Below, one piece after another: positions 6,033 to 37,136 of a stretch of DNA of 37,136 bases. This stretch comes from Bacteroidales bacterium (GTDB lineage: Bacteria > Bacteroidota > Bacteroidia > Bacteroidales > UBA932): contig JALCMP010000019.1 in assembly GCA_022648545.1 (NCBI GenBank), forward strand, positions 1 to 37,136, written 5' to 3'. How positions within the stretch are numbered: position 1 is the stretch's first letter; each line of letters begins with the position of its first letter. Below the pieces are notes generated by a model, which was given only the letters and a program-made list of their open reading frames with translations, made no database searches and was not told the origin of the DNA. Made by a program: the position numbers and the translations under genes.

Positions 6033-6872
6033 ATGGACAAAAGGACTATAACTATAGTAAAAATAGGAGGCAACGTTATTGACAATCCTGATTCGCTGGA
6101 TAAATTCCTTAAGGATTTCGGAAACCTTAGGGGATTTAAAATTCTGGTGCACGGAGGAGGTAAAATCGTAAGCGAACTTCTGAAAGAACTCGGGATAGAA
6201 GTAAAGATGTACAGGGGACGCAGGATTACGGGGCCGGAAACAATAAGGATTGCAACAATGGTATATGCCGGCCTTATAAACAAAACTATAGTAGCCACCT
6301 TGCAAAAGAACGGATGCAATGCACTTGGACTTTCCGGAGCAGACGGCAATTGCATAAGGGCAAACAAAAGACCTCCGCTCATAGTCGGGGACGATCCTGA
6401 AGCTGAACTTTTATGCGGAAAGGACAACAGGGGCAAAACTGTTATAGACTGGGGATACGTAGGAGATCCGGATTCTTCGGGAATCAACAGCAAGCTTCTG
6501 GGGGGATTGCTTGAAAACGGGTATTCTCCGGTTCTGTCAGCCATAACACATGACGGCAGCGGTTCCCTTCTGAATACTAATGCGGACACTATTGCGGCAA
6601 ATATCGCAGCAGCTTTATCAAGCGAATATGATGTAAAATTAGTATATTGCTTTGAAAAAGCAGGAATACTGCGCGATCCTGATAATGATGATTCCGTTAT
6701 TCCGGTAATCACAAGGGATTTATACAAAAAACTGCTTGACGGGAAGATTATAACCGGAGGAATGATTCCCAAGACGGGAAACGCTTTCGACGCACTTGAA
6801 AAAGGCGTAAGGGAAATTTATATAAAAAAAGCCGAAGATCTTCTCAATGATAAAGGAACCGTTATAAAATAA
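6033..6872 (+). CDS. argB: N-acylglutamate kinase
   Basis: A 279-residue amino-acid kinase phosphorylating the gamma-carboxylate of N-acylglutamate. The N-terminal VKIGGNVIDN contains the catalytic lysine K10, and the glycine loop HGGGKIVSELL (from residue 40) and the NTNADTIAANIA segment are typical of ArgB. The C-terminal GKIITGGMIPKTGNAFDAL fits the nucleotide-binding part. It starts 11 nt after argF'. No N-terminal extension typical of arginine-inhibited hexameric forms is visible, so feedback control, if any, may lie elsewhere in the pathway. Confidence 0.95.
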   Translation: MDKRTITIVKIGGNVIDNPDSLDKFLKDFGNLRGFKILVHGGGKIVSELLKELGIEVKMYRGRRITGPETIRIATMVYAGLINKTIVATLQKNGCNALGLSGADGNCIRANKRPPLIVGDDPEAELLCGKDNRGKTVIDWGYVGDPDSSGINSKLLGGLLENGYSPVLSAITHDGSGSLLNTNADTIAANIAAALSSEYDVKLVYCFEKAGILRDPDNDDSVIPVITRDLYKKLLDGKIITGGMIPKTGNAFDALEKGVREIYIKKAEDLLNDKGTVIK

Positions 6873-26589: not shown

Positions 26590-28665
26590 CTATTCCGTAG
26601 TTTCATTCACCTTTACTTCGGATTTATAATCTTTATTTTTCTGCGGATAAGCTATGCGGGTATGGTATATTTCCGCAAGCTGTCTCTTGAAGACTTCCTT
26701 GACTATATTTATTTCCTTAATGGTTATATCCGCCTGTGCAAGCTGTGAATCGGATATCCTCTTGCTAAGGATGGATTCCACCATATCGGATATGCTTTTT
26801 GGCGAATAATCCGATAGACTTCTGGCCGTAGCTTCCACTGCATCGGCCATCATAACAACAACCTGTTCCCGGCTTGTGGGCAGCGTTCCATGGTAAGTAA
26901 ATTTATCCACATTGGCTGGATCTCCTCCTTCATTGCAATATTTATTGTAAAAATATGCCGTCTGCGATTGTCCGTGATGTGATGTAATAAATTCGATAAT
27001 AACTTTGGGCAGGGAATATTTGCGGGCATATTCCACTCCCATATCCACATGTTTTATTATTTCCTGAGCACTCTCCATGGGAGAAAGGCCCTTATGGTAA
27101 TTTACTCCCGGAGCTTCATTTTCTATAAAACACTGGGGATTATATATTTTACCTACATCATGGTACATTGCTCCAACCTTTACCAATCTGGAATCCCCGC
27201 CTATTGCCTTAACTGCCCTCTCGGCAAGATTGGCAACCTGCAGGGAATGCTGGAACGTACCGGGGGCGAGCCGTGCAAGTTCCTGAAGCAGAGCATTATT
27301 AGTATCGGACAAATCCCTGAGTGTTGAATTCGATACAAGGGAGAACATTTTTTCAAGAAGAAAAACCAGAGGATAACATGCGACCACAAGCAATGCATTA
27401 AGAAGCAAATACGCAAGAGCCGTAAAATTTAGCGAATCAGTGGCGGCATTTTCCGGAAACTTAAATGAAAAATATACTGTCATCATTCCGATAAAAATCA
27501 GAAGGGAATTAAGGAATTGTTTCCACCCTCGGTGAAGATACCTAAAAGCCAACAGAGTAACACCTCCGCCGACGACGTTTATAACATACAGTTCCACACC
27601 GAATTCCGATATTAGAAGGACAGGCAACAAAGAAACCATGTATACGGGAAACACAAGTTTGGTATCGAAAAAGGCCACCATATAAAGAGCGAATACCGCA
27701 TAAGGAACCATAAACAGATAGGAAGAACTCCATCTGTTTACCATAACGGTTATGATAAAAATAAGGACTACTATAAAAAGGATGAAATCAAATTTGTTCC
27801 ATTGCGGAAGGACATCAATATCGCCGAAAAAAACCGCGGCGGTGACCAACAACAGCAATATGAACACAAACATCATGTGTCCGGCGGATATCAGAAGCTT
27901 ATCTCCGTTACCGCCTACGCTGTTTCTGTACTCCGATTTATATGAATCAAGAATCTGGGCAGTTTCCGGGGTTACTATCTCACCTTTTGAGATTATAAGC
28001 TCTCCGGCATAAATCGTTCCTTTCGTGGGAGATATATCATCTACCACTCTTTTATGCATAAGTTCGGTAGTAGATTGGTCGAAGGTTACGTTAGGAACTA
28101 TAAGGCTTTTAATATTTATTATATTAAGGGCGGAATCTACATTGAATTCCGGAAATGCGGCAGTCATATCGGTCTGCAACGCAAGCAAGGCACTGTTTTT
28201 CGTATACAACTGTGAAACGAGTTGCTTTACCGTTCCGGATCCTCTTTTAACATATACATATTCCGATGATCCGTTTTCATCTATTATCCCCTTTTCATAA
28301 AGCCTGCCAAGCGAACCGGCGATAGCAGCTTCGAAATCGGATGGCATGCCGGAAAAAGAATGCATCTTATTAAGATACTGTATCTGATTTGCTTCGGTTT
28401 CACCGTTTAGTATATAATATGGGACAATGCTTTCCGCCGCTTTTGTCTTTTCATCCTGCATTTCCTTTGCAGACTTCAATATGGGAAAATCTATCGGGGA
28501 AATGAGAGTTTCGTAAAGCCACGGTCTGCCTATCTGATAAGAATATTTAAATCTGCCCACATTGGGAAAAAAAATCATTATAACCACGAACGCTATGGCG
28601 AGATTAAAATATATTTGCTTATGATTCAAAGCCTTTATGGCTTTTCTTTTATTCAGGATTTCCAT
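26590..28665 (-). CDS. 7TM-HD phosphodiesterase, PgpH/YqfF type (c-di-AMP hydrolase)
   Basis: A 691-residue membrane protein. One N-terminal helix (~residues 18-34) precedes an extracytoplasmic 7TMR-HDED domain (~40-265), then about seven helices (270-450), then a cytoplasmic HD domain. The HD residues are visible: H473 in FQHSLQVANLAERA, H502-D503 in YHDVGKIYNP, and a further His pair in FITSHHGQ. The architecture is that of PgpH, which hydrolyses the second messenger c-di-AMP. The family assignment is firm; activity in this organism is inferred. The gene is monocistronic and converges on ssrA. Confidence 0.92.
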   Translation of the reverse strand: MEILNKRKAIKALNHKQIYFNLAIAFVVIMIFFPNVGRFKYSYQIGRPWLYETLISPIDFPILKSAKEMQDEKTKAAESIVPYYILNGETEANQIQYLNKMHSFSGMPSDFEAAIAGSLGRLYEKGIIDENGSSEYVYVKRGSGTVKQLVSQLYTKNSALLALQTDMTAAFPEFNVDSALNIINIKSLIVPNVTFDQSTTELMHKRVVDDISPTKGTIYAGELIISKGEIVTPETAQILDSYKSEYRNSVGGNGDKLLISAGHMMFVFILLLLVTAAVFFGDIDVLPQWNKFDFILFIVVLIFIITVMVNRWSSSYLFMVPYAVFALYMVAFFDTKLVFPVYMVSLLPVLLISEFGVELYVINVVGGGVTLLAFRYLHRGWKQFLNSLLIFIGMMTVYFSFKFPENAATDSLNFTALAYLLLNALLVVACYPLVFLLEKMFSLVSNSTLRDLSDTNNALLQELARLAPGTFQHSLQVANLAERAVKAIGGDSRLVKVGAMYHDVGKIYNPQCFIENEAPGVNYHKGLSPMESAQEIIKHVDMGVEYARKYSLPKVIIEFITSHHGQSQTAYFYNKYCNEGGDPANVDKFTYHGTLPTSREQVVVMMADAVEATARSLSDYSPKSISDMVESILSKRISDSQLAQADITIKEINIVKEVFKRQLAEIYHTRIAYPQKNKDYKSEVKVNETTE

Positions 28666-28733
28666 AATACATCAACATCTGAACAAAATTATACAAAATA
28701 TGACATTAAATTACATATCTAATGCTAAAATGC

Positions 28734-28764
28734 TTTTTATAAAACTAAAAATAAATTATCTTTG
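28734..28764 (+). promoter_or_regulatory. tRNA-Ser promoter
   Basis: TTTT (28734-28737) and TATCTTTG (28757-28764) are separated by 19 nt. The -7 box matches the Bacteroidota consensus fully and the -33 box in three of four positions. It lies about 50 nt before the tRNA. Confidence 0.7.
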
Positions 28765-28819
28765 CGCCGTCTTTATTCAAAACGGCCCGTCAACCGGGAC
28801 CATCAGACACACAACCACT

Positions 28820-28907
28820 GGAGAGATGCAGGAGTGGTTGAACTGGCACGCCTGGAAAGCGTGTAAACCTCTAAAGGGTTTCAAGGGTTCGAATCCCTTT
28901 CTCTCCG
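28820..28907 (+). tRNA. tRNA-Ser (anticodon GGA)
   Basis: The acceptor stem GGAGAGA pairs with TCTCTCC (28900-28906), with discriminator G. The anticodon arm CACGC-CTGGAAA-GCGTG gives anticodon GGA for serine UCC/UCU. A long variable arm follows (cctctaaagggtttc region), as expected for a class II tRNA, then the T-arm with GGTTCGAATCC. CCA is not encoded. Confidence 0.96.
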
Positions 28908-28915
28908 CAAACGAA

Positions 28916-28945
28916 GAAAAGAGCGACTGAAAGGTCGCTTTTTTC
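28916..28945 (+). terminator. intrinsic terminator after tRNA-Ser
   Basis: agcgac (28922-28927) pairs with gtcgct (28934-28939) across a 6-nt loop and is followed by ttttttc, with A-residues on the other side. It closes the single-tRNA transcript. Confidence 0.8.
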
Positions 28946-29019
28946 ATATGCGCCCCTGGCGGCGAAAGCTTGCTTTCGGAAAGCGAAGAGCCGCATATGA
29001 AAAACACCGGCACCGCCGG
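28945..29019. repeat. GC-rich nested palindromes downstream of the tRNA
   Basis: catatgcg (28945-28952) and cgcatatg (28992-28999) form the outer arms of a ~55-nt cruciform. Inside is a 7-bp stem, cgaaagc/gctttcg, with a 2-nt loop. A separate ccggc-acc-gccgg stem lies at 29007-29019. The stretch is GC-richer than its surroundings and contains no convincing gene. It resembles an intergenic repeat element, but no second copy is in the window. Confidence 0.55.
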
Positions 29020-29210
29020 CGCTTTTCTAAAGTTTGCAAGGAACCCCGCGGGAGCGCAGGGAATGCGCAGGCGAAGCTGAGCATCATCCCGAAGGAGCTT
29101 TTCCCTCATAATTCATAAAAACGATCAGGGTGCAGAAATACGCCCATCGGATACCAAGCATAAACAACCGATAATAAGAACATTACATCAAAAGTTATCA
29201 CAAAATCCAT

Positions 29211-29385
29211 TTGCATCCTGACGGCCTGTTTTTCGCCGATCGGCCTCTCATGTGCCTGCAAGCCTCATTGTGAAAAAACGTAAAATCAGGATGCGGAAAC
29301 CTTTCCGTCGGGTTTCCACATTAAAGCACTCACTTGCAACAAAATACCCACGAAGTCATTATAGCACCGATCTGCATCCTGACGG
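29211..29385. repeat. direct and inverted copies of a gcatcctgacgg motif
   Basis: tgcatcctgacgg occurs at 29212-29224 and again at 29373-29385, and an inverted partial copy (tcaggatgc) lies between them at 29286-29294. Next to the inverted copy is a 7-bp stem, ggaaacc/ggtttcc (29295-29301 / 29311-29317). No gene is seen in the whole stretch 28908-29700; apart from these palindromes and the cassette-boundary motifs it holds nothing recognisable. Confidence 0.55.
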
Positions 29386-29462
29386 ATTTTTAAAAAATCT
29401 ATCATAGACTTAATCTAATTTTTTAAATATTTCCATAATTTGAGTGTTATTTTGGTATTGTC

Positions 29463-29593
29463 CATAACGGTTGGTGTATGAGGCGTTGGGCATTTCAACA
29501 CACTTCACTGTCAAACCGCTGATATGTTTATTAAATGTACTCACTTTTAATTAAACGCCTTCTGTCCAATAACTTATACACATTGTTGTGCGG
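29463..29593. repeat. left boundary palindrome of the accessory cassette
   Basis: The left part (ggtgtatgaggcgtt, 29473-29487) is partly complementary to the right part (aaacgcc near 29553, then ttatacac near 29575), giving an imperfect long palindrome. It contains GCGTTGGGC (29483-29491) and ends with TGTTGTGCGG (29584-29593), whose exact reverse complement lies at 34131-34140 beyond the helicase gene. The layout recalls recombination sites of gene cassettes; identity is not established. Confidence 0.5.
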
Positions 29594-29633
29594 TCGTACT
29601 TTTTCTTCAGTCTGGGTAGGCAAGGCATACTCT

Positions 29634-29676
29634 TTTGCAATTTTGGGTTGAAGCGTTGGCTTGTGCGAATTGCAAA
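29634..29676. repeat. hairpin with AGCGTTGGC core, 3' of the TPR-CSD gene
   Basis: tttgcaatt (29634-29642) pairs perfectly with aattgcaaa (29668-29676). The core AGCGTTGGC (29652-29660) lies in the loop region. The same nine bases recur in the same orientation at 34031-34039, just outside the other end of the two-gene unit. Confidence 0.55.
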
Positions 29677-29700
29677 TGTGTATGGTTTTAGCGTGGGCTT

Positions 29701-31134
29701 TCATTTCAATAGTCTTAGTATTCTTACTTTTTTTCTGTCTTTTGCAGGAATTACCTTGAAAATTACTTTCGTCCCAACTGTTAACTCAGTTGTCAAATGC
29801 CAATTTGGTGAAGCTGAAAAATAAAATTCATTGTCGTCCGATTTGATGAAACCATCTTTTCCACGTTCATTGTCGTGAAGTAACTTAATAATTTCTCCTT
29901 GTAAATTTTCAGAATTACTACTGTGTTTTGGAGCCTTCTTTCTATTGTCATTTTTGTTGAATCCATTCCAATATTTTTTAAGTTCTGATTTTAAATTCTT
30001 TAACTCGCTTAATGAAATTTCACTTTGTCCAAATTGATTTAATTCGTCAAAGACTTTTTGAGGAACTTTCCATTCTTCGTCTTGACGAACAAGTTTGGAA
30101 AGGCTAAAATGCTTGAATGCCAAGTCAGATTGACCTTGCTTATTTAAAATCTTTCCGATTAAGTAAAGTAGGTCAACTTTGAATTCAAGAGGACCGAAAT
30201 TGTTAATGGCATCAATTGCCATTTTAAATGCTGCGTCCAAATCGTCTTTCTCAAAATAGAGTTCTGCCAATTCCTTCTGAATAAACCACTCTCGTTTCTT
30301 TCTTAAGATAGTTTTAAGTTCTTCAATTGTATCTTCCGCATTCCCAAGATTCTTCTTTGACAGAGCTACTCGCCTTGAAAACCAAATGTCATTGGAATAA
30401 TGGAAGTTATCAATCTTTTCAAGTGCTTCTTTGGATGTGTCAAAACACTCTTGCCATTCGCCTAATTTCATTAAAGCTTTTGTTTTGTAAGCGTACCAAT
30501 TTTCAAAATCGGATGCCAATTCCATATCCTGGGTACGTCCTTTTCGTTCAACCTGAATAGTTGAACAGTCGGTTGAAAGCTGAATTGGGACAAATTGGTT
30601 GCAAAAATCATTTACAAGTTTCCAGTTAGGAGCAGGCTTATTCTTCTCTGATTTAAGAACAATTGAAAACAAATTTGAAACAAGCGTTTTTGAAAAATCA
30701 CTATTCAATCCCAGAAGAATGGGAATCAGCGTTTCTATTCTTTCAATGAGTTCGCTTTTGTCATAGTGAAAATTCTGTTGCTGAAAATCTTCTTCATCTT
30801 CATCAAAAAATTGCGTTTCATCATCAAAGTTACTGGCGTTCTCATTTTCTGCTTTGTACTTTGACCATAAAAGCCAACCATACGCAGTTAAGATTCTTTC
30901 CTTTTGGCTGTCATCAATTTTGATGTCATATATGTTTAAGAATTGAAACCCAGCATCAAATTGATTGGTGTATCTGAGGCAAGAAATTAAATCAGATACG
31001 ATATATTCATTATTTGAAAGTTGTTCTTTGGAGAAACTGGTTTTATTCTCTTTAAAATAAGAAAGTGCTTCCGAGTACTTTTTAGCTTTCTTAAGATCTG
31101 ATATCTGTCTGCTAAAATCAAATAATGATGCCAT
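29701..31134 (-). CDS. TPR-repeat protein with C-terminal cold-shock-like domain
   Basis: A 477-residue, probably cytosolic protein with no signal peptide or membrane segment. Most of it is helical and TPR-like: alternating pairs such as ALMKLGEWQECFDTSKEALEK and AELYFEKDDLDAAFKMAIDA, spaced about 34 residues. An acidic stretch (DDETQFFDEDEED) lies near residue 105. The last 65 residues (413-477) look like a cold-shock/OB domain: GEIIKLL, GKDGFIKS (RNP1-like), EFYFSAS (RNP2-like), then VGTKVIFKVIPAKD. Such domains bind single-stranded RNA or DNA. The start codon directly follows the helicase stop with no gap, so the two proteins are surely made together. Function unknown; a nucleic-acid-binding partner of the helicase is the natural guess. 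Confidence 0.8.
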   Translation of the reverse strand: MASLFDFSRQISDLKKAKKYSEALSYFKENKTSFSKEQLSNNEYIVSDLISCLRYTNQFDAGFQFLNIYDIKIDDSQKERILTAYGWLLWSKYKAENENASNFDDETQFFDEDEEDFQQQNFHYDKSELIERIETLIPILLGLNSDFSKTLVSNLFSIVLKSEKNKPAPNWKLVNDFCNQFVPIQLSTDCSTIQVERKGRTQDMELASDFENWYAYKTKALMKLGEWQECFDTSKEALEKIDNFHYSNDIWFSRRVALSKKNLGNAEDTIEELKTILRKKREWFIQKELAELYFEKDDLDAAFKMAIDAINNFGPLEFKVDLLYLIGKILNKQGQSDLAFKHFSLSKLVRQDEEWKVPQKVFDELNQFGQSEISLSELKNLKSELKKYWNGFNKNDNRKKAPKHSSNSENLQGEIIKLLHDNERGKDGFIKSDDNEFYFSASPNWHLTTELTVGTKVIFKVIPAKDRKKVRILRLLK

Positions 31135-33999
31135 TTAACTGTCTTTTAGTTTGTTAATGATTGTCTGAAAATCAGTCCATAAACTTGGTTCAGTTGATGA
31201 CAAAGCGGAAATGGTTGAGAAAAATCCATCTCCGTCATAATACAGGTCAATTGTTAGCTTATCGCTTGAACGAATCAGTTGAACAGTATCTTTATATGGA
31301 GCTTGGATAATATAGCTTATTGCTAAGTCTTTCTCTTTAAGAATTTCATTCAATTGACTATATGCTGAAACTCTCCAGTTGTCTTTAATAAAGCTGAAAT
31401 CATCAATGGAATTATCTGCTTTCAAAGTATTCAGTAGTTCTTCTCCAAATTCTTTGGGTTGTGATTTCATCAAAGAAGGCATTTTGAATTGACCTTTTTT
31501 ATTGTAGTAGATTGAAATAGTGGCTGTTTCACCAGAGTTCCCTTTTAGCTCATATAATTCCTGATAATTTGGATGATTAATGGAATTGATGCTTATTTTT
31601 TTGCTTGTTAGCTTTCCTTCGATGAATTGATATAATTGAAGAAGATAGGATTTAAAATCATCATCTTTAAATTTGTATTTATCCGCTACTTCTTTATTTA
31701 GATTACTTAAATCAATAGATGTGTCAGCAATGTAGAATAAGTCCTTCCCCTTTGAATTTGAAGGTATTGTTGGTTTTAAATCAAGTTTATAGAAAGGCGA
31801 AATTGGAGTGTAATTGATAAGGCTAACTTTTGAGGTTGCTCTTATCAACCCTGTATAAATCCATTTGAAGTAGATTTCGTTCGTTTTGCCACCGCCTGTT
31901 TCTACGTTAAAGAATATTTCATCCCATTTGTAGGACATTGATTTGTGAACCGTTAAAGCCCAACCAAATCGCAACTGTGCAGCATTTTTAAATTTGTAAT
32001 AATCGGTTGATGGCATATTGCTTAAAGAACGTTGAATTTTACGGGAAACTTTCGTTTTTACTCTTTTACCATCTGCCAATTTTTGCAACAAGTCTTTCAG
32101 CTCTTCATCAACGTGATATTTGCCATTTTTAAAATTGTCCAACTCCTTTTCTGCCAATTGAGCCAAAAGAATTTTATAGGATATGATTTCTTCCTTGGAA
32201 AGTTCGCCTTTATCACTTAGTCTGAAATTTTCTAAGCTGAGAAAACTGAGTGTATGATTCGATTCCTGTAAGTTGATGGTTACTTCACGGAAAGTTAAAG
32301 GTGTGATTAGTTTTTCCGTTTGGGTAATTGTATTTGACACAGATACAATTTCACCAAATTGTCCATTGAAAATTTTTTTCGGTTCAGCAAAAGGGTCGTT
32401 TTCATCTTCAACTCTTATGTTGTTCCCAAAAATGACTAAATCACCTTTTGTTAAGTCGTTCCCATTTTTGAGAATTGAGTTCTTTATCCAGAAATTAACT
32501 TTCTGAGCATCAAAATTTGAGTAGCAAAGAATATGAGAACTTGACGTTGATCTAAATGATTTTTCAATTCTATCTTTCAATTCATCCTTTGATAGGATTT
32601 CTAAAGAACCGGAAATCTCAAATTTTAAGTTGTTGTACGATTGATTGCGAATGCAATTGACAGCTTTTAGTCCTTCAGCAACAATTGGAGATTTCTTTTC
32701 TTTATCAATAAGTTGAAATGTTTTAGCTTCAAAGTTGTATTCATCAGCTAAATATTCAGGATTGAGTGCAGATTTTTCTTTTTTACCAATCGAAAGTTGA
32801 AAGCTATCTCCTACGAAAATAATTTTTCGTTTTGAATTTTTTAGGTCTGCAAACTCAATGAAATCTTTCAATAACTTGCCTGAGCCAAATCGCAAGTCAA
32901 TAGATTGGTAGTAATTATCTGAAATTAGATGAGATTCGTCCACTATGAATATTGCGTCTTCTGTGTCGTCAGACTTTTTGAGCGGGACAACTTCTAAGTC
33001 TATTTTGTCTTCGTTTTGATTTTCAGTTTCTTCTTTTTCTTCGGTTTCTGAATTAGTTATGTTTCCACCGTATATGTAAGAATAGATACTGTCAAATTCT
33101 AAGTTTGTATTCTTCAATAAGTTGTTGGAAACTCGTCCAGATGATGCAAATAGTTTAGCTTCTGGAATTCGATTATTATATGCTATATCCTGTATAAATG
33201 GAATCAAATGCGTTTTTCCGCTTAAAGATGTTCCTTGAAGCACAAAAAAACGGTCGTCTTGAGATTTTATGAAAGATTCGATTTCTTGAAGTGCAGACTT
33301 TTGGTCAGGATAAAGGTTCTCAAAATCCAATTCCGTTTCATAAGTCATAAAATCAGTTGTTTCTCCATAATTTTCAGAAAGGTCAAAACTGTCCGCTCTG
33401 AAAACTTCCTTAAATACATCATAGGACTCTTTTGTTAAAGAAACATCTTTATCAGAAATGTCAATAATGTCCTTAATTTTTTCAAGGTAATTGGCTTTGT
33501 CAATTATGAAGAAGTTGAGCTCTTCCTTTGGTGGAATGCTTCCAATTAATTCAATCGTTTTCTGAAAACAAACCATTTTTATTGTATGATGAGGATTGAA
33601 ACAGTCATATGCTGGCAATCTGTCTAATATCTGATTTTCTACAACATTTATAAATCGGTCTTTTTGTTTTTTTAGTTGAATAAATGGATTTATGGAACTA
33701 CCGCCTTTGATTATACCACCTTGCTCATTAGTCCACTTGCCACAATTAAATTCTGATTTTGCATTTTTGGGTAATGTTATTTTTCCGCCAAAATTTTTAA
33801 AGTCAATGATACAAACTGCTTTTTCAGTAATTAGCAAAGCATCAATTTGAAGCCTTTTTTCAGCTTCACATTCAGAGTTTGCAATTAGAAGTCCGTCAAG
33901 TGAATACTTGTCAAATAAGTTTTTAAGGTTTTCTGCAAACTCCCTAAAAAATATATTCTCGTAATTCTTTGCCGCTGTTCCTTTTCTTATTTCAAGCAT
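31135..33999 (-). CDS. NERD nuclease-like domain fused to SF1 helicase
   Basis: A 954-residue protein. Residues ~10-150 form a NERD domain: QIDALLITEKAVCIIDFKNF supplies D53 and D66-x-K68, the PD-(D/E)xK-type residues. An SF1 helicase follows: Walker A GTSLSGKT (256-263), Walker B FIVDESH (351-357), motif III FVGDSFQLS (395-403), and late motifs GWALTVHKSMSYKWDEIFFN (679-698) and YTGLIRATSKV (715-725), the RecD/UvrD_C_2 arrangement. An acidic insertion (318-333) and a ~220-residue C-terminal region of unknown fold are extra. The sequence is AT-richer than the core genes. It shares an operon with the TPR/cold-shock protein. NERD-helicases occur in several phage-defence contexts; that role here is inference. 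Confidence 0.82.
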   Translation of the reverse strand: MLEIRKGTAAKNYENIFFREFAENLKNLFDKYSLDGLLIANSECEAEKRLQIDALLITEKAVCIIDFKNFGGKITLPKNAKSEFNCGKWTNEQGGIIKGGSSINPFIQLKKQKDRFINVVENQILDRLPAYDCFNPHHTIKMVCFQKTIELIGSIPPKEELNFFIIDKANYLEKIKDIIDISDKDVSLTKESYDVFKEVFRADSFDLSENYGETTDFMTYETELDFENLYPDQKSALQEIESFIKSQDDRFFVLQGTSLSGKTHLIPFIQDIAYNNRIPEAKLFASSGRVSNNLLKNTNLEFDSIYSYIYGGNITNSETEEKEETENQNEDKIDLEVVPLKKSDDTEDAIFIVDESHLISDNYYQSIDLRFGSGKLLKDFIEFADLKNSKRKIIFVGDSFQLSIGKKEKSALNPEYLADEYNFEAKTFQLIDKEKKSPIVAEGLKAVNCIRNQSYNNLKFEISGSLEILSKDELKDRIEKSFRSTSSSHILCYSNFDAQKVNFWIKNSILKNGNDLTKGDLVIFGNNIRVEDENDPFAEPKKIFNGQFGEIVSVSNTITQTEKLITPLTFREVTINLQESNHTLSFLSLENFRLSDKGELSKEEIISYKILLAQLAEKELDNFKNGKYHVDEELKDLLQKLADGKRVKTKVSRKIQRSLSNMPSTDYYKFKNAAQLRFGWALTVHKSMSYKWDEIFFNVETGGGKTNEIYFKWIYTGLIRATSKVSLINYTPISPFYKLDLKPTIPSNSKGKDLFYIADTSIDLSNLNKEVADKYKFKDDDFKSYLLQLYQFIEGKLTSKKISINSINHPNYQELYELKGNSGETATISIYYNKKGQFKMPSLMKSQPKEFGEELLNTLKADNSIDDFSFIKDNWRVSAYSQLNEILKEKDLAISYIIQAPYKDTVQLIRSSDKLTIDLYYDGDGFFSTISALSSTEPSLWTDFQTIINKLKDS

Positions 34000-34028
34000 T
34001 TTGTTATTCTATTATTTCCTATTTCAGT

Positions 34029-34140
34029 CGAGCGTTGGCAAAAAAAACAGCTCTTTTGGTTTTTCAAGGTCTGGCTTTTGTGTCGGCAAAAACCAAATGT
34101 GCTGTTTGTGCGTAGGCTCTTTTTAGTATGCCGCACAACA
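34029..34140. repeat. right boundary palindrome of the accessory cassette
   Basis: cagctcttttggttttt (34048-34064) pairs with aaaaaccaaatgtgctg (34088-34104) in 15 of 17 positions, and the outer gagc (34030-34033) can pair with gctc (34116-34119). AGCGTTGGC lies at 34031-34039 and the terminal CCGCACAACA at 34131-34140. Together with the left boundary it brackets the two-gene unit. Confidence 0.6.
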
Positions 34141-34144
34141 TCTA

Positions 34145-34191
34145 TATATACGACACCCTCGTTGTATATGCGACATAAAATGTCGTATATA
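34145..34191. repeat. two mutually exclusive hairpins
   Basis: tatatacgaca (34145-34155) and tatatgcgacat (34165-34176) are near-copies, and both are complementary to tgtcgtatata (34181-34191). Only one pairing can form at a time, either an 11-bp stem with a long loop or a short-loop stem (cgacat/atgtcg plus flanks). No T-run follows closely. The rest of 34192-34595 is AT-rich, holds no gene, and shows no further clear signal. Confidence 0.5.
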
Positions 34192-34595
34192 TCCGCCTTA
34201 GCCGTAGGTGTCTATTTTTCTATATATTTAATATTCAAACAAATACACACAACGCGTATTCGCCCGTAGTTTCGTATACACAATTCCCTCATGCACGGAT
34301 ACCTACCGCCCACTACCCGCCTGTATAACAATACCGATCGTATTACCCCAATTTTAATAACCGGGTAACAAACCGGAATCTTTAGAAAATAACTATAACA
34401 ATGGTGATTTTTAGTTTAAGTTAGGTTACCTCTAATTGAGTTTAAAGTTATGAAATTTTTCTTTATGTTGTTATCGCAGAATCATTCTTTTGCCTTGATA
34501 ATGATAATATTGCCGGCGTCCGCAGCCTGCTGACCGGAGCCTGATATTGCTTAAAATCCCCCTCCAACATAACTCAGCATCGGAAATACCCTCTC

Positions 34596-35249
34596 CTAAT
34601 TCACATATCCGAATTCTTTCAGATCCTCAATATTATTTATCCTGTAACTAGTACAATCCTTTATAAGATACAGGATATCGCTTACCTCCGTTATGTATCT
34701 GTACATATGATCGGTAATAATAATTCCTTTGTTCTGCTTTTCCTGCTTTATGATATCAATAAAAGTAGAAATATTCTTAGGTGATAAACATGAAAACGGC
34801 TCGTCGAGTATGCAAAATTCGGTTTTGCTTTTCAGTATAAGAAAAGTCTCGAGCAGCCTTACGGTTCCTCCGGAAAGTGCTTTTATCTTAAGATTCTCCC
34901 ATTTCCCAAACTCTTCGAAATATTCGCAAAAGTCCCTGAAATCCAAACCGAAATAATCGAATACTTGTCCTACCTTAAGATGCTTAGGCAGAAAATTGAA
35001 TTGAGGCAGCATTCTCATTTCCGCAGGATTTCTGTTATCGCCATACAACCCCCGTCCGTTTATTCTTACGGATTTTTCACTATTCCGTATCTCACCGAAA
35101 ATCAATTTCAACAAACAAGACTTTCCGCACCCGTTCCTCCCCAGAATTCCCGTCACGTTTCCTGTTTCGGCCTCAACATAAATGCCGTTCAACACCGATT
35201 TTTCTCTAAAACTCAGTTGGACGCTGTCTATTTCAAGTTTATTCCCCAT
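34596..35249 (-). CDS. ABC transporter ATP-binding protein
   Basis: A 217-residue single nucleotide-binding domain. Walker A is GRNGCGKS, the Q-loop MLPQFNFLP, the signature ALSGGTVR (LSGGT rather than LSGGQ), Walker B FCILDEP, and the switch His in ITDHMYR. It is a stand-alone ATPase with no large permease next to it. Its start overlaps the 3' end of a small 3-TM protein gene by 11 nt, and that protein is the only visible membrane partner. Whether the pair is an exporter, a regulator of an outside permease, or a remnant of a larger system cannot be told. Confidence 0.88.
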   Translation of the reverse strand: MGNKLEIDSVQLSFREKSVLNGIYVEAETGNVTGILGRNGCGKSCLLKLIFGEIRNSEKSVRINGRGLYGDNRNPAEMRMLPQFNFLPKHLKVGQVFDYFGLDFRDFCEYFEEFGKWENLKIKALSGGTVRLLETFLILKSKTEFCILDEPFSCLSPKNISTFIDIIKQEKQNKGIIITDHMYRYITEVSDILYLIKDCTSYRINNIEDLKEFGYVN

Positions 35250-35547
35250 AAAAACTCAAAGCAATTATAGCAAGAAGAAAAAAGACCGTCAGATCAAAGA
35301 TTATGGAAAATATCCACAATTTCCTTTCACCTACGCCAAGATTCTTGTAAAAATAAGACTCGTCAGCCTTATAATTTCTTATATAAAAGAATATCAGCAT
35401 CAAGGTTATAATCTTAAACCAGAACAGAGATGCAAGAGCATAGATGCCATACGAAAATAAGAAGTAAGCACACACGATGGAAATCGACAGCGAAACAAAT
35501 CCGAACGATTTATAAAAGGTAAAATATAACCTCAACTTTTTATTCAT
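35239..35547 (-). CDS. small membrane protein (3 predicted TM) paired with an ABC ATPase
   Basis: A 102-residue protein with hydrophobic segments at about residues 14-35, 37-56 and 77-99, and a charged loop (RNYKADESYFYKNLGVGERK) between the second and third. The 3' end overlaps the ABC ATPase start by 11 nt, so the two are translationally coupled. The family was not recognised. It is too short for a normal ABC permease, though a multimer or a fragment are both possible. A weak promoter-like TAACTTTA lies in the ~95 nt upstream on the minus strand. Confidence 0.65.
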   Translation of the reverse strand: MNKKLRLYFTFYKSFGFVSLSISIVCAYFLFSYGIYALASLFWFKIITLMLIFFYIRNYKADESYFYKNLGVGERKLWIFSIIFDLTVFFLLAIIALSFYGE

Positions 35548-35644
35548 ATCATTAATCCCGAAAGCACTCGTTTTTCATCGGTCTTTAATATTATATAAAG
35601 TTATCTCTTTTTACCGATTTATCTAAATTTAATGGACATCATCG

Positions 35645-37136
35645 CTATTTTTCTTTCACACATCTTACGGAAAATCCGCCCGCACGGTTACTATAATTAT
35701 AAGGATCAACAATACTGCGGCTGAAAGCGGCAGCAGAAGAATAAGAATTTACAACGGAAGCAAGCCAATAATTCCCATTAACACCAACAAGGAAAAAAGC
35801 CCCGCTGCCCCAATAACGGAATCCGGTTGCCGGATAATACATATTAGCAGGAACAGATTCGGTATAAATCCTTCCATAAGAACTTTCCCAAGCTGATGAG
35901 TACCATGGAAAATAGATATATGAGTTTTGGCTATCTCCAACATCGCCGGTATCAAAACTTTTCCATGGAGAAATACCATCTTCAAAGTATGGAACTCTCC
36001 AACCTTCGGGACACGGGTCGAATATAGTTTTGCCCGACGGTTTTGATTCAGAAGTACTACTTCCCCATAATCCGGAATTCAATAAATCTGCATTATCGGT
36101 AGAAGTATACCAGTCATAACTTATGTTATCTCCTTCCACACCGTAATAAAATGTCATGGGGCTTTTTATCGAATTTCTCAAATTCAATACTTTATCCGAC
36201 AATGTCGTTTCCAGAGCCTGTGCATGTTTTATTCCACTACCCGACGTTCCGCTTTCTTCCGTAAGGGCGGTTCCGTTTTGATTATATATCGGCAAACTTG
36301 TATAAGTGTTATTAGAAATCCCGGTATAATTACCTGCTCCCGGAAATGGATCTTTTCTACCCCACTGATAAAGCAGACCCAGCGTCGTGGTTGTTGAAGG
36401 TGTCACCGTTATTGCTCCAAGATTACGGTCCATCCATATGTATGAGCCACTTGTATTTGTTATTGTATATACGTCTCCGTTTTCCACGGGAGTTTCATCA
36501 GGATTATAATCAGTAACCCATATGTGCCAGCTCCAAAGGATATCTCCCGAACAATCGGCTCCCGAATATGCAGCTATTACAGCATTACCCATCGCTCCGC
36601 CTGCAGTTACATTTATTTTCTTATCACTGCTTAAACTCCCCAGTATTATCAGATTTCGAGAAGTCTCCCATAGTATCCCGACAGATGAAGGAGATATACT
36701 CGTACTCAATCCAGTTCCGGCAACCTCTCCTCCGTTACCCCTCACATTTACCGGAATAATCCGGCTGTTATCCGGGGGTATCATATAACAATTGGAGGGA
36801 GAATGAACTTTCGGAACGGAACTACCTATTGTAATGTTAAAAATATATTGCGTGCCGGCGAGCAAACCCACTGTTGAAGCATCTTCAACAGTCCCGGTTA
36901 TATCTTCTCCGTCTACAGTAAACGTAAACTTAAGGCTTCCGCTCAACGCCGTTTCGTTCGGAACCATCAACACATATACCGTTGAAGAATTTCCGGCTGA
37001 GATACCGGTTATCCCAACATCGTTTATCGTCACCGTTCCTTTATTCTCATCCGAGGGTGTACCTGCTTTATCCGTCAACAAATTATAAGTATTGGAAGAA
37101 ATAATATCGGGGTTTTCTATCTTTATTTTACTTATG
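35645..37136 (-). CDS. fimbrillin-like / FISUMP-domain surface protein (5' end outside window)
   Basis: The frame is open to the right edge, so the N-terminus, including any signal peptide, is missing; at least 496 residues are present. The visible N-terminal part (ISKIKIENPD, TFTVDGEDITGTVED and LLAGTQYIFNITIG) resembles the beta-sandwich of Bacteroidales fimbrillin-like adhesins. A middle Ig-like region leads to a C-terminal FISUMP domain: YIWMDRNLGA, YQWGRKDPFPGAGNY, FDPCPEGWRVPY, GNYWLAS, and the terminal GFSVRCVKEK. Such proteins are cell-surface or pilus-associated lipoproteins. Nothing in the flanks identifies a partner. Confidence 0.82.
   Translation of the reverse strand, partial: ISKIKIENPDIISSNTYNLLTDKAGTPSDENKGTVTINDVGITGISAGNSSTVYVLMVPNETALSGSLKFTFTVDGEDITGTVEDASTVGLLAGTQYIFNITIGSSVPKVHSPSNCYMIPPDNSRIIPVNVRGNGGEVAGTGLSTSISPSSVGILWETSRNLIILGSLSSDKKINVTAGGAMGNAVIAAYSGADCSGDILWSWHIWVTDYNPDETPVENGDVYTITNTSGSYIWMDRNLGAITVTPSTTTTLGLLYQWGRKDPFPGAGNYTGISNNTYTSLPIYNQNGTALTEESGTSGSGIKHAQALETTLSDKVLNLRNSIKSPMTFYYGVEGDNISYDWYTSTDNADLLNSGLWGSSTSESKPSGKTIFDPCPEGWRVPYFEDGISPWKSFDTGDVGDSQNSYIYFPWYSSAWESSYGRIYTESVPANMYYPATGFRYWGSGAFFLVGVNGNYWLASVVNSYSSAAAFSRSIVDPYNYSNRAGGFSVRCVKEK

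Follow-up and report, generated by a model that had tools for sequence, protein, structure and literature searches.

A two-gene unit of the predicted TOTE defence family, with a NERD nuclease-helicase, on an integron-like gene cassette in a Bacteroidales bacterium

The DNA analyzed here, referred to as the window, is a stretch of 37,136 nucleotides from a Bacteroidales bacterium (contig JALCMP010000019.1 of assembly GCA_022648545.1). It holds two minus-strand genes, for a helicase protein of 954 aa and a TPR protein of 477 aa, and the positions of both ORFs were confirmed as the initial annotation had given them, including the spacer of 0 bp between the stop codon of the first and the start codon of the second. 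The genes and the features which surround them are listed in Table 1.

Table 1. Features of the cassette and its surroundings, in window coordinates.
Feature	Coordinates	Strand	Evidence or remark
Block resembling the region 5' of the C8 recombinase ORF	34309..34512	-	68%; recombinase itself missing here
attI-like site, core G at 34139	34139..34238	-	Aligns over 117 bp at 82% with contig C8 of the own genome (G000:C8)
Whole gene cassette, 4,671 bp	29468..34138	-	Begins with TT of the attI core, ends with G of the attC core
Hairpin-forming inverted repeat, 5' untranslated part of the cassette	34045..34107		Look-alike at ~29605-29690
NERD - SF1 helicase - tandem TBP-like protein (PDC-M16A)	31135..33999	-	954 aa; profile matches and alignment
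NERD nuclease domain, residues 20-120, with D53/D66/K68	33640..33942	-	PF08378, 1.8e-7; invariant in 6/6
Tandem TBP-TOTE domains, residues ~786-857 and ~874-948	31156..31644	-	PF22721, two matches over cut-off
TPR/DUF7017-like protein with C-terminal OB (cold-shock-like) region	29701..31134	-	PDLC01170 2.3e-45; PDC-M16B 1.1e-5; DUF7017 8.9e-6
3' untranslated cassette end	29581..29701	-	DNA comparison; 83.8% identical to Mesonia despite different partner ORFs
attC that closes the cassette (3' end; model match 29465-29588)	29460..29595	-	33.8 bits; ends complementary 9/9

The helicase protein begins with a nuclease-like domain, as first proposed, and the Pfam NERD match lies above its cut-off. 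The SF1 core is related to the RecD2/Dda helicases (1.1e-28 to a PHROG Dda-like helicase); within Pfam, ResIII matches just above its cut-off, and UvrD_C_2 and AAA_30 both remain below theirs. The C-terminus carries tandem TBP-TOTE domains (PF22721, 2e-37), which the initial annotation had overlooked. The PADLOC profile PDC-M16A covers almost the full length of the protein (3e-99, residues 51-946), and no YprA-type family appears in its Pfam, NCBIfam and PADLOC match lists, on the assumption that these libraries hold YprA models. The catalytic residues D53, D66 and K68 of NERD and the Walker A lysine K262 are located where they had been placed and are invariant in all six aligned full-length homologues, as are the core residues of the other helicase motifs (D354, E355 and S356; G397, D398, Q401 and L402; T683 to K686; Y715, T716, R720 and A721), while S687 is not invariant. 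Among helicase relatives the N-terminal module varies, being NERD, DUF4145 or none.

The partner matches PDLC01170, described in PADLOC as 'TPR fused to cold shock-like OB', over residues 189-470, and the alignment extends to profile position 356 of 368; the match to PDC-M16B is far poorer. Pfam matches of TPR type are weak, with DUF7017 just below its cut-off and TPR_12 (6e-4) under its own. Because Pfam CSD alone is not significant, found in one of six partner family members at E 0.069 and not in the window protein, the OB assignment is based on PDLC01170 and on a conserved GFIK...YF stretch. In this form the predicted TPR protein ending in an OB-type domain was recovered. Among the profiles that had been named for the two proteins, NERD and TPR-CSD (the latter in PADLOC) were borne out, UvrD_C_2 stayed below its cut-off and Pfam CSD was not significant. 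The description of a dedicated, mobile, probably active nuclease-helicase with a TPR/OB partner in accessory DNA appears right.

The two genes are adjacent in all 23 testable loci, which come from three phyla, and homologues are thus far from being rarely found together. In each locus the next gene on the same strand, at a gap of -20 to +17 bp, encodes a TPR protein that either matches the PDLC01170 or PDC-M16B profile itself or resembles a protein that does. The 23 loci include nine with a full-length relative whose downstream flank is on the contig (the window, L005, L006, L008, L009, L010, L011, L012 and L016, where L008 is counted with a contig that begins within the helicase gene and leaves NERD outside), ten NERD-less Bacteroidota loci and four plasmid loci out of 70 matched plasmid records. 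The plasmid copies are from Escherichia, Sulfurospirillum, Leisingera and Pseudomonas, and DUF4145 replaces NERD in them. L007 and L051 (contig ends), L054 (no helicase match) and L034 (stops break the match) were left out, and L013 and L018, which belong to the same genome as L009, were counted once.

Judged by its domains, the pair is a two-gene unit of the TOTE type (PDC-M16), in a NERD variant, of a predicted defence family. The initial annotation had not recognized it as a named defence system; however, PDC-M16 is found in PADLOC and TOTE in Pfam. TOTE denotes TPR, OB, TBP and Effector, and the available part of PMC12458937 treats these as predicted conflict systems. Each component has a counterpart in the window: the two PF22721 matches for the TBP-like part, PDLC01170 for both the TPR part and the OB part (S1/CSD-like), and the NERD domain as the putative effector. 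Compared with the TOTE systems in that part of the account, the window packs everything into two genes, fuses NERD to an SF1 helicase and TBP repeats, and is an attC cassette. With PDC-M16 it shares the helicase match and the side-by-side A and B proteins, the latter in 23/23 loci, and it differs in that its partner fits PDLC01170 better, whereas the Mesonia partner is of the PDC-M16B type. TALON, as presented in the same part of PMC12458937, likewise has NERD, TPR-CSD and TBP, but has a YprA-family helicase where the window has an SF1 motor of RecD2/Dda type fused to NERD and TBP. A literature search, thin on subscription journals, found no experimental report on TOTE, PDC-M16 or the pair.

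The pair is patchy, mobile and horizontally spread, and does not sit at one fixed core-genome locus. At 1e-40 the helicase is found in 4 of 395 genomes of the phylum, its own included, and at E 0.001 TBP-TOTE is found in 16 of 395 (13 over cut-off) and in none of 14 controls. Within the same family, helicase relatives occur in 2 of 149 genomes at 1e-20, its own and G003, and among the 11 other genomes of the same genus in that draw only G003 has a relative, which is NERD-less. The helicase protein is 91% identical to that of Mesonia and 73% to that of Dysgonomonas; over the parts present it is 88% and 86% identical to proteins on contigs binned as Thiothrix and Oceanicaulis, labels that could reflect misbinning. 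Purifying selection acts on both genes: in comparison with Mesonia the helicase has a dN/dS of 0.09 (0.037 in its NERD part), and the TPR gene has 0.096 against L008. A phage origin was considered and rejected, as the viral_contigs search, which finds close relatives only, gave no confirmed helicase relative; phage records held eight weak partial matches to the helicase core.

Several relatives adjoin known defence genes. CRISPR arrays or cas genes adjoin 7 of the 11 NERD-less Bacteroidota loci, four of the seven being from one genus, so that four genera are represented. A script found arrays in L045, L048, L049, L053 and L100 (the continuation of L017, the one locus that was extended in this way), and those in L045, L049 and L053 were also seen in a second, separate look; L047 has Csm4, and L051 has a Cas4-like gene below cut-off and what we take, by our own reading, to be Cas1 and Cas2. 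The repeat detector gave no CRISPR array in the window, in any of seven NERD loci or in any of 16 control loci; since it also rings in L115, L116 and L118 of the window's own genome, an array call alone is not proof. In G003, which belongs to the window's genus (L017 and L100), the NERD-less pair lies directly upstream of a 1295-aa protein that matches PDB entry 8d49, presumably Cas12a2, at 6.6e-181. Two arrays of 12 and 17 repeats are present at this locus. The available part of PMC10910872 reports that some Cas12a2 genes have a UvrD helicase and a TPR protein as neighbours, and we infer that such a pair is TOTE, a name that this part does not use; the window copy differs in having NERD and no array. 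Additionally, type I restriction genes (HsdR-like and an HsdM/S fusion) lie directly downstream of the TOTE pair of G332 (L016:1324-6373).

A defence role in some form is, from these sequence-based observations, likely for the pair. One way in which it could be played is abortive infection, where recognition of an invader would turn NERD against the DNA or RNA of the host cell itself and so kill it. This would suit the same-genus pair upstream of the 8d49-like protein, as Cas12a2 is an abortive effector in the available part of PMC10910872, and the weak likeness of the TBP-like region to the N-terminus of the RnlA toxin (E 5.9e-4, below cut-off). However, the NERD cassette has no third gene as a possible antitoxin, and we consider abortive infection unlikely. 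A housekeeping role, as a mobile helicase-nuclease for DNA repair or RNA processing, would agree with the RecD2/Dda relationship, and repair and transcription proteins likewise make use of OB and TBP-like domains. Rarity among relatives, in 4/395 and 2/149 genomes with the own genome included, argues against such a role, as do the restriction or CRISPR genes that adjoin in several genomes and the carriage on cassettes and plasmids, and we regard it as improbable.

The setting had been described as AT-rich accessory DNA downstream of a tRNA and bounded by repeats. The first part holds, with a GC content of 0.334 in the cassette and 0.413 in the rest of the window, whereas an attI-like site and an attC, rather than a tRNA and repeats, form the borders. 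A tRNA-Ser does lie at 28820-28908, but a tRNA-borne genomic island was rejected, as no repeat of the tRNA 3' end is listed within 28500-35700 and the tRNA-Ser is missing from all 16 same-genus neighbourhoods of the adjacent 7TM-HD gene that were examined. Of the 39 genus genomes, 37 carry this flanking gene and 9 the flanking ABC gene, the own genome included in both counts, and the attI of contig C8 was used for comparison in place of an empty site from the flanking genes. A dispersed repeat at ~29188-29410, near the 3' side, recurs at eight other places in the genome, and near copies of it are found regularly spaced CRISPR-like repeats whose units are nearly identical at three separate places (L115:3754-4356, L116:3394-4386 and L118:687-1942).

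At the upstream border, DNA similarity to both Mesonia and 'Thiothrix' begins, in operon orientation, at base 34139, the G of a GTT, and likeness between the window and C8 drops directly after the ATG/TT core, so that in all three comparisons homology starts or ends at the G/TT core. The flanking blocks are spaced ~520 bp apart on C8 and ~70 bp in the window. At the other border, a covariance model (R1) built from four C8 sites, with the window site excluded though spotted by eye beforehand, gave the attC an E of 1.4e-5, the next best match in the window scoring 10.5 bits. When up to 89 candidates were scored in each of the 39 genomes of the genus, R1 at E 0.001 found sites in the own genome only: five on C8, four of them training sites, one on C49, and that of the window. 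The cassette also obeys an end rule, its start GTTGTGCGG and its end CCGCACAAC being complementary at 9 of 9 bases. Single-strand folding of the window attC is no better than that of shuffled sequences (z -0.6), nor clearly better for one Vaginella site (z -1.0), but is better for one Mesonia site (z -3.4). Look-alike hairpins of the form ACATTTG...CAAAAGAG occur in both untranslated cassette ends and in a C8 cassette (L114 ~6450-6499).

A longer cassette array with at least eight attC sites lies on C8 in the same genome (L113:12352-18001 and L114:1-9642). Among its cassettes are those for an O-methyltransferase, HEPN_RiboL-PSP/LprI, Mrr_cat-nSTAND3 and an HTH protein, the last with a large ORF behind it where the contig ends, and this cargo is partly defence-like. 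The attI-like stretch lies ~90 bp beyond a truncated tyrosine recombinase ORF (163 aa) and precedes the gene run, in which the genes are separated by sites of 68-139 bp. The first 9-mer of each site complements the opening bases of the cassette to which the site belongs, with all eight adjacent pairs agreeing at 8 or 9 of 9 positions, against 8 of 73 non-adjacent pairings.

Similar arrays are seen with varying clarity in relatives. Applied to ten loci, R1 returned its training sites with three reverse-strand echoes of them, another two sites on C8, which score 43.4 and 28.4 bits, and three Vaginella sites (E 0.006-0.06, with no better than 0.06 for the site that follows the TOTE pair); even at E up to 1 it gave no site in L005, L007, L008, L009, L010 or L011. 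By eye, attC-like sequence was seen on the 5' side of L007 and the 3' side of L008 and L010, and none in L005 and L009. Around the Vaginella TOTE pair, 15 attC-like matches are spread along 41 kb on a single strand, a count that includes the query, several partial matches and maybe a few cases of two pieces of one site. This array ends ~0.6 kb from a recombinase, its TOTE cassette obeys the end rule at 9/9, and 7 of 8 adjacent pairs reach at least 8, against 12 of 73 non-adjacent ones. The Mesonia copy lies among eight attC-like matches on one strand, the query included, with the nearest IntI-like recombinase 16 kb from the last array element; none of four adjacent repeats there reaches 8 of 9 in the end rule, and the copy's own attC looks degenerate, with ~10 bases from CCGCACAAC to the next GTT as read by eye.

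The borders might instead be ordinary dispersed repeats, as the other dispersed repeats near the 3' side, a recombinase that is not a canonical IntI, the unremarkable folding of the window attC and the failure of R1 and the end rule in part of the relatives could suggest, but this is very improbable given homology limits at the G/TT core in three comparisons, an attC match 23 bits above the next, no R1 match at E 0.001 among the up to 89 candidates scored in each of the genus's 38 remaining genomes, and an end rule kept at 9/9 in the window, 8/8 on C8 and 7/8 in Vaginella. The pair is an integron-like gene cassette rather than a tRNA-bounded island. An attC at the cassette 3' end and insertion at the G/TT of an attI core are found, whereas no IntI integrase that bears the IntI-specific domain lies beside the attI. 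The available part of PMC9668308 treats this domain as defining, and we use the term integron-like rather than canonical integron because the nearby recombinases are without the IntI-defining insertion.

No match to the integrase profile TIGR02249 was found on the contig of the window. Profile positions ~175-245 are covered by the 'Thiothrix' IntI but skipped by the recombinases of C8, Vaginella and Mesonia. On its own the profile is unspecific, matching 14 of 14 control genomes (none over cut-off), and it exceeds its cut-off in one of 11 genomes tested ('Thiothrix'). The distance between two active-site motifs, measurable in 29 of 30 related loci, is 58-63 residues there and thus shorter than the 65-66 in three loci that we label Xer-like, a pattern that the 'Thiothrix' IntI escaped. 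Bacteroidota tyrosine recombinases without the IntI-specific insertion (L149-L178) are widespread, in 94 of 296 phylum genomes at 1e-35, and some lie beside same-strand intergenic repeats. At least two same-strand repeat copies were found in 12 of 20 recombinase loci, nine of them wholly outside ORFs, against one of 16 control loci, with both copies inside ORFs; this method missed the known L113 array, and most controls were shorter than the test loci. In 12 repeat families, at least one adjacent pair reached 8/9 or more in the end rule only in L191, L194, L195 and L198; the array is most clearly seen in L191, which has a high background of 11 of 31 non-adjacent pairs.

The comparison with Mesonia also bears on the partner. 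From 34139 to 31141, the end of the helicase gene, the DNA is 89.4% identical; the partner ORF then shows no DNA match (477 aa in the window and 851 aa in Mesonia), and the match resumes at the stop codon and runs from 29701 to 29581. The Mesonia partner is of PDC-M16B type (5e-105) and 58% identical to the partner in G332, where the helicase is only ~42-45% identical to that of the window. As helicase and cassette ends are conserved and the partner differs, the simplest reading of the sequences is a gene-for-gene partner swap between conserved cassette ends. This suggests that the partner may set specificity and that the helicase may be a common effector.

The reading that we favour, as rather probable, is that the TOTE-type NERD unit on its integron-like cassette would be an ATP-driven nuclease-helicase which destroys invading nucleic acid once an exchangeable TPR-OB sensor has recognized it. 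The TPR-OB protein would act as sensor and scaffold, with the OB region holding the RNA or single-stranded DNA of a virus, plasmid or other invader. In the effector, the tandem TBP-like domains would clamp the nucleic acid, and the SF1 motor would move along it with ATP, probably 5'-to-3' on DNA because it is of the RecD2/Dda type. The PD-(D/E)xK site of NERD would then cut, and the invading DNA would be destroyed.

Integrons have previously been reported in Bacteroidota (PMC8618304, available part), and integron cassettes are known to carry phage defence (Darracq, Kieffer and Getz 2025, cited in the available part of PMC12444791). The window resembles the latter in carrying defence genes as an attC cassette, but it is from Bacteroidota, has a two-gene cassette of 4.7 kb and is associated with recombinases without the IntI-specific insertion. 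TOTE is not mentioned in the available parts of the integron accounts PMC12444791, PMC8618304 and PMC9668308. A wider picture, which we offer tentatively and as doubtful, is that a second kind of Bacteroidota integron, run by tyrosine recombinases without the IntI-defining domain, spreads compact TOTE cassettes among distant bacteria, their sensor gene being swapped while effector and cassette ends stay fixed, and that nuclease-less TOTE has been recruited repeatedly into CRISPR-Cas, as a shared chassis for innate and CRISPR immunity.

With this locus a predicted defence family gains a complete and compact example that is intact, has exactly defined borders and could be expressed as it stands. 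The natural swap, in which a 91% identical helicase is paired with a different partner, makes it directly testable which gene sets specificity. Cassette carriage could explain closely similar copies in distantly related bacteria, and attC cassettes are thereby suggested as a route by which TOTE moves between distant Bacteroidota. Additionally, the finding raises the testable question of whether recombinases without the IntI-specific domain may work attC-like arrays.
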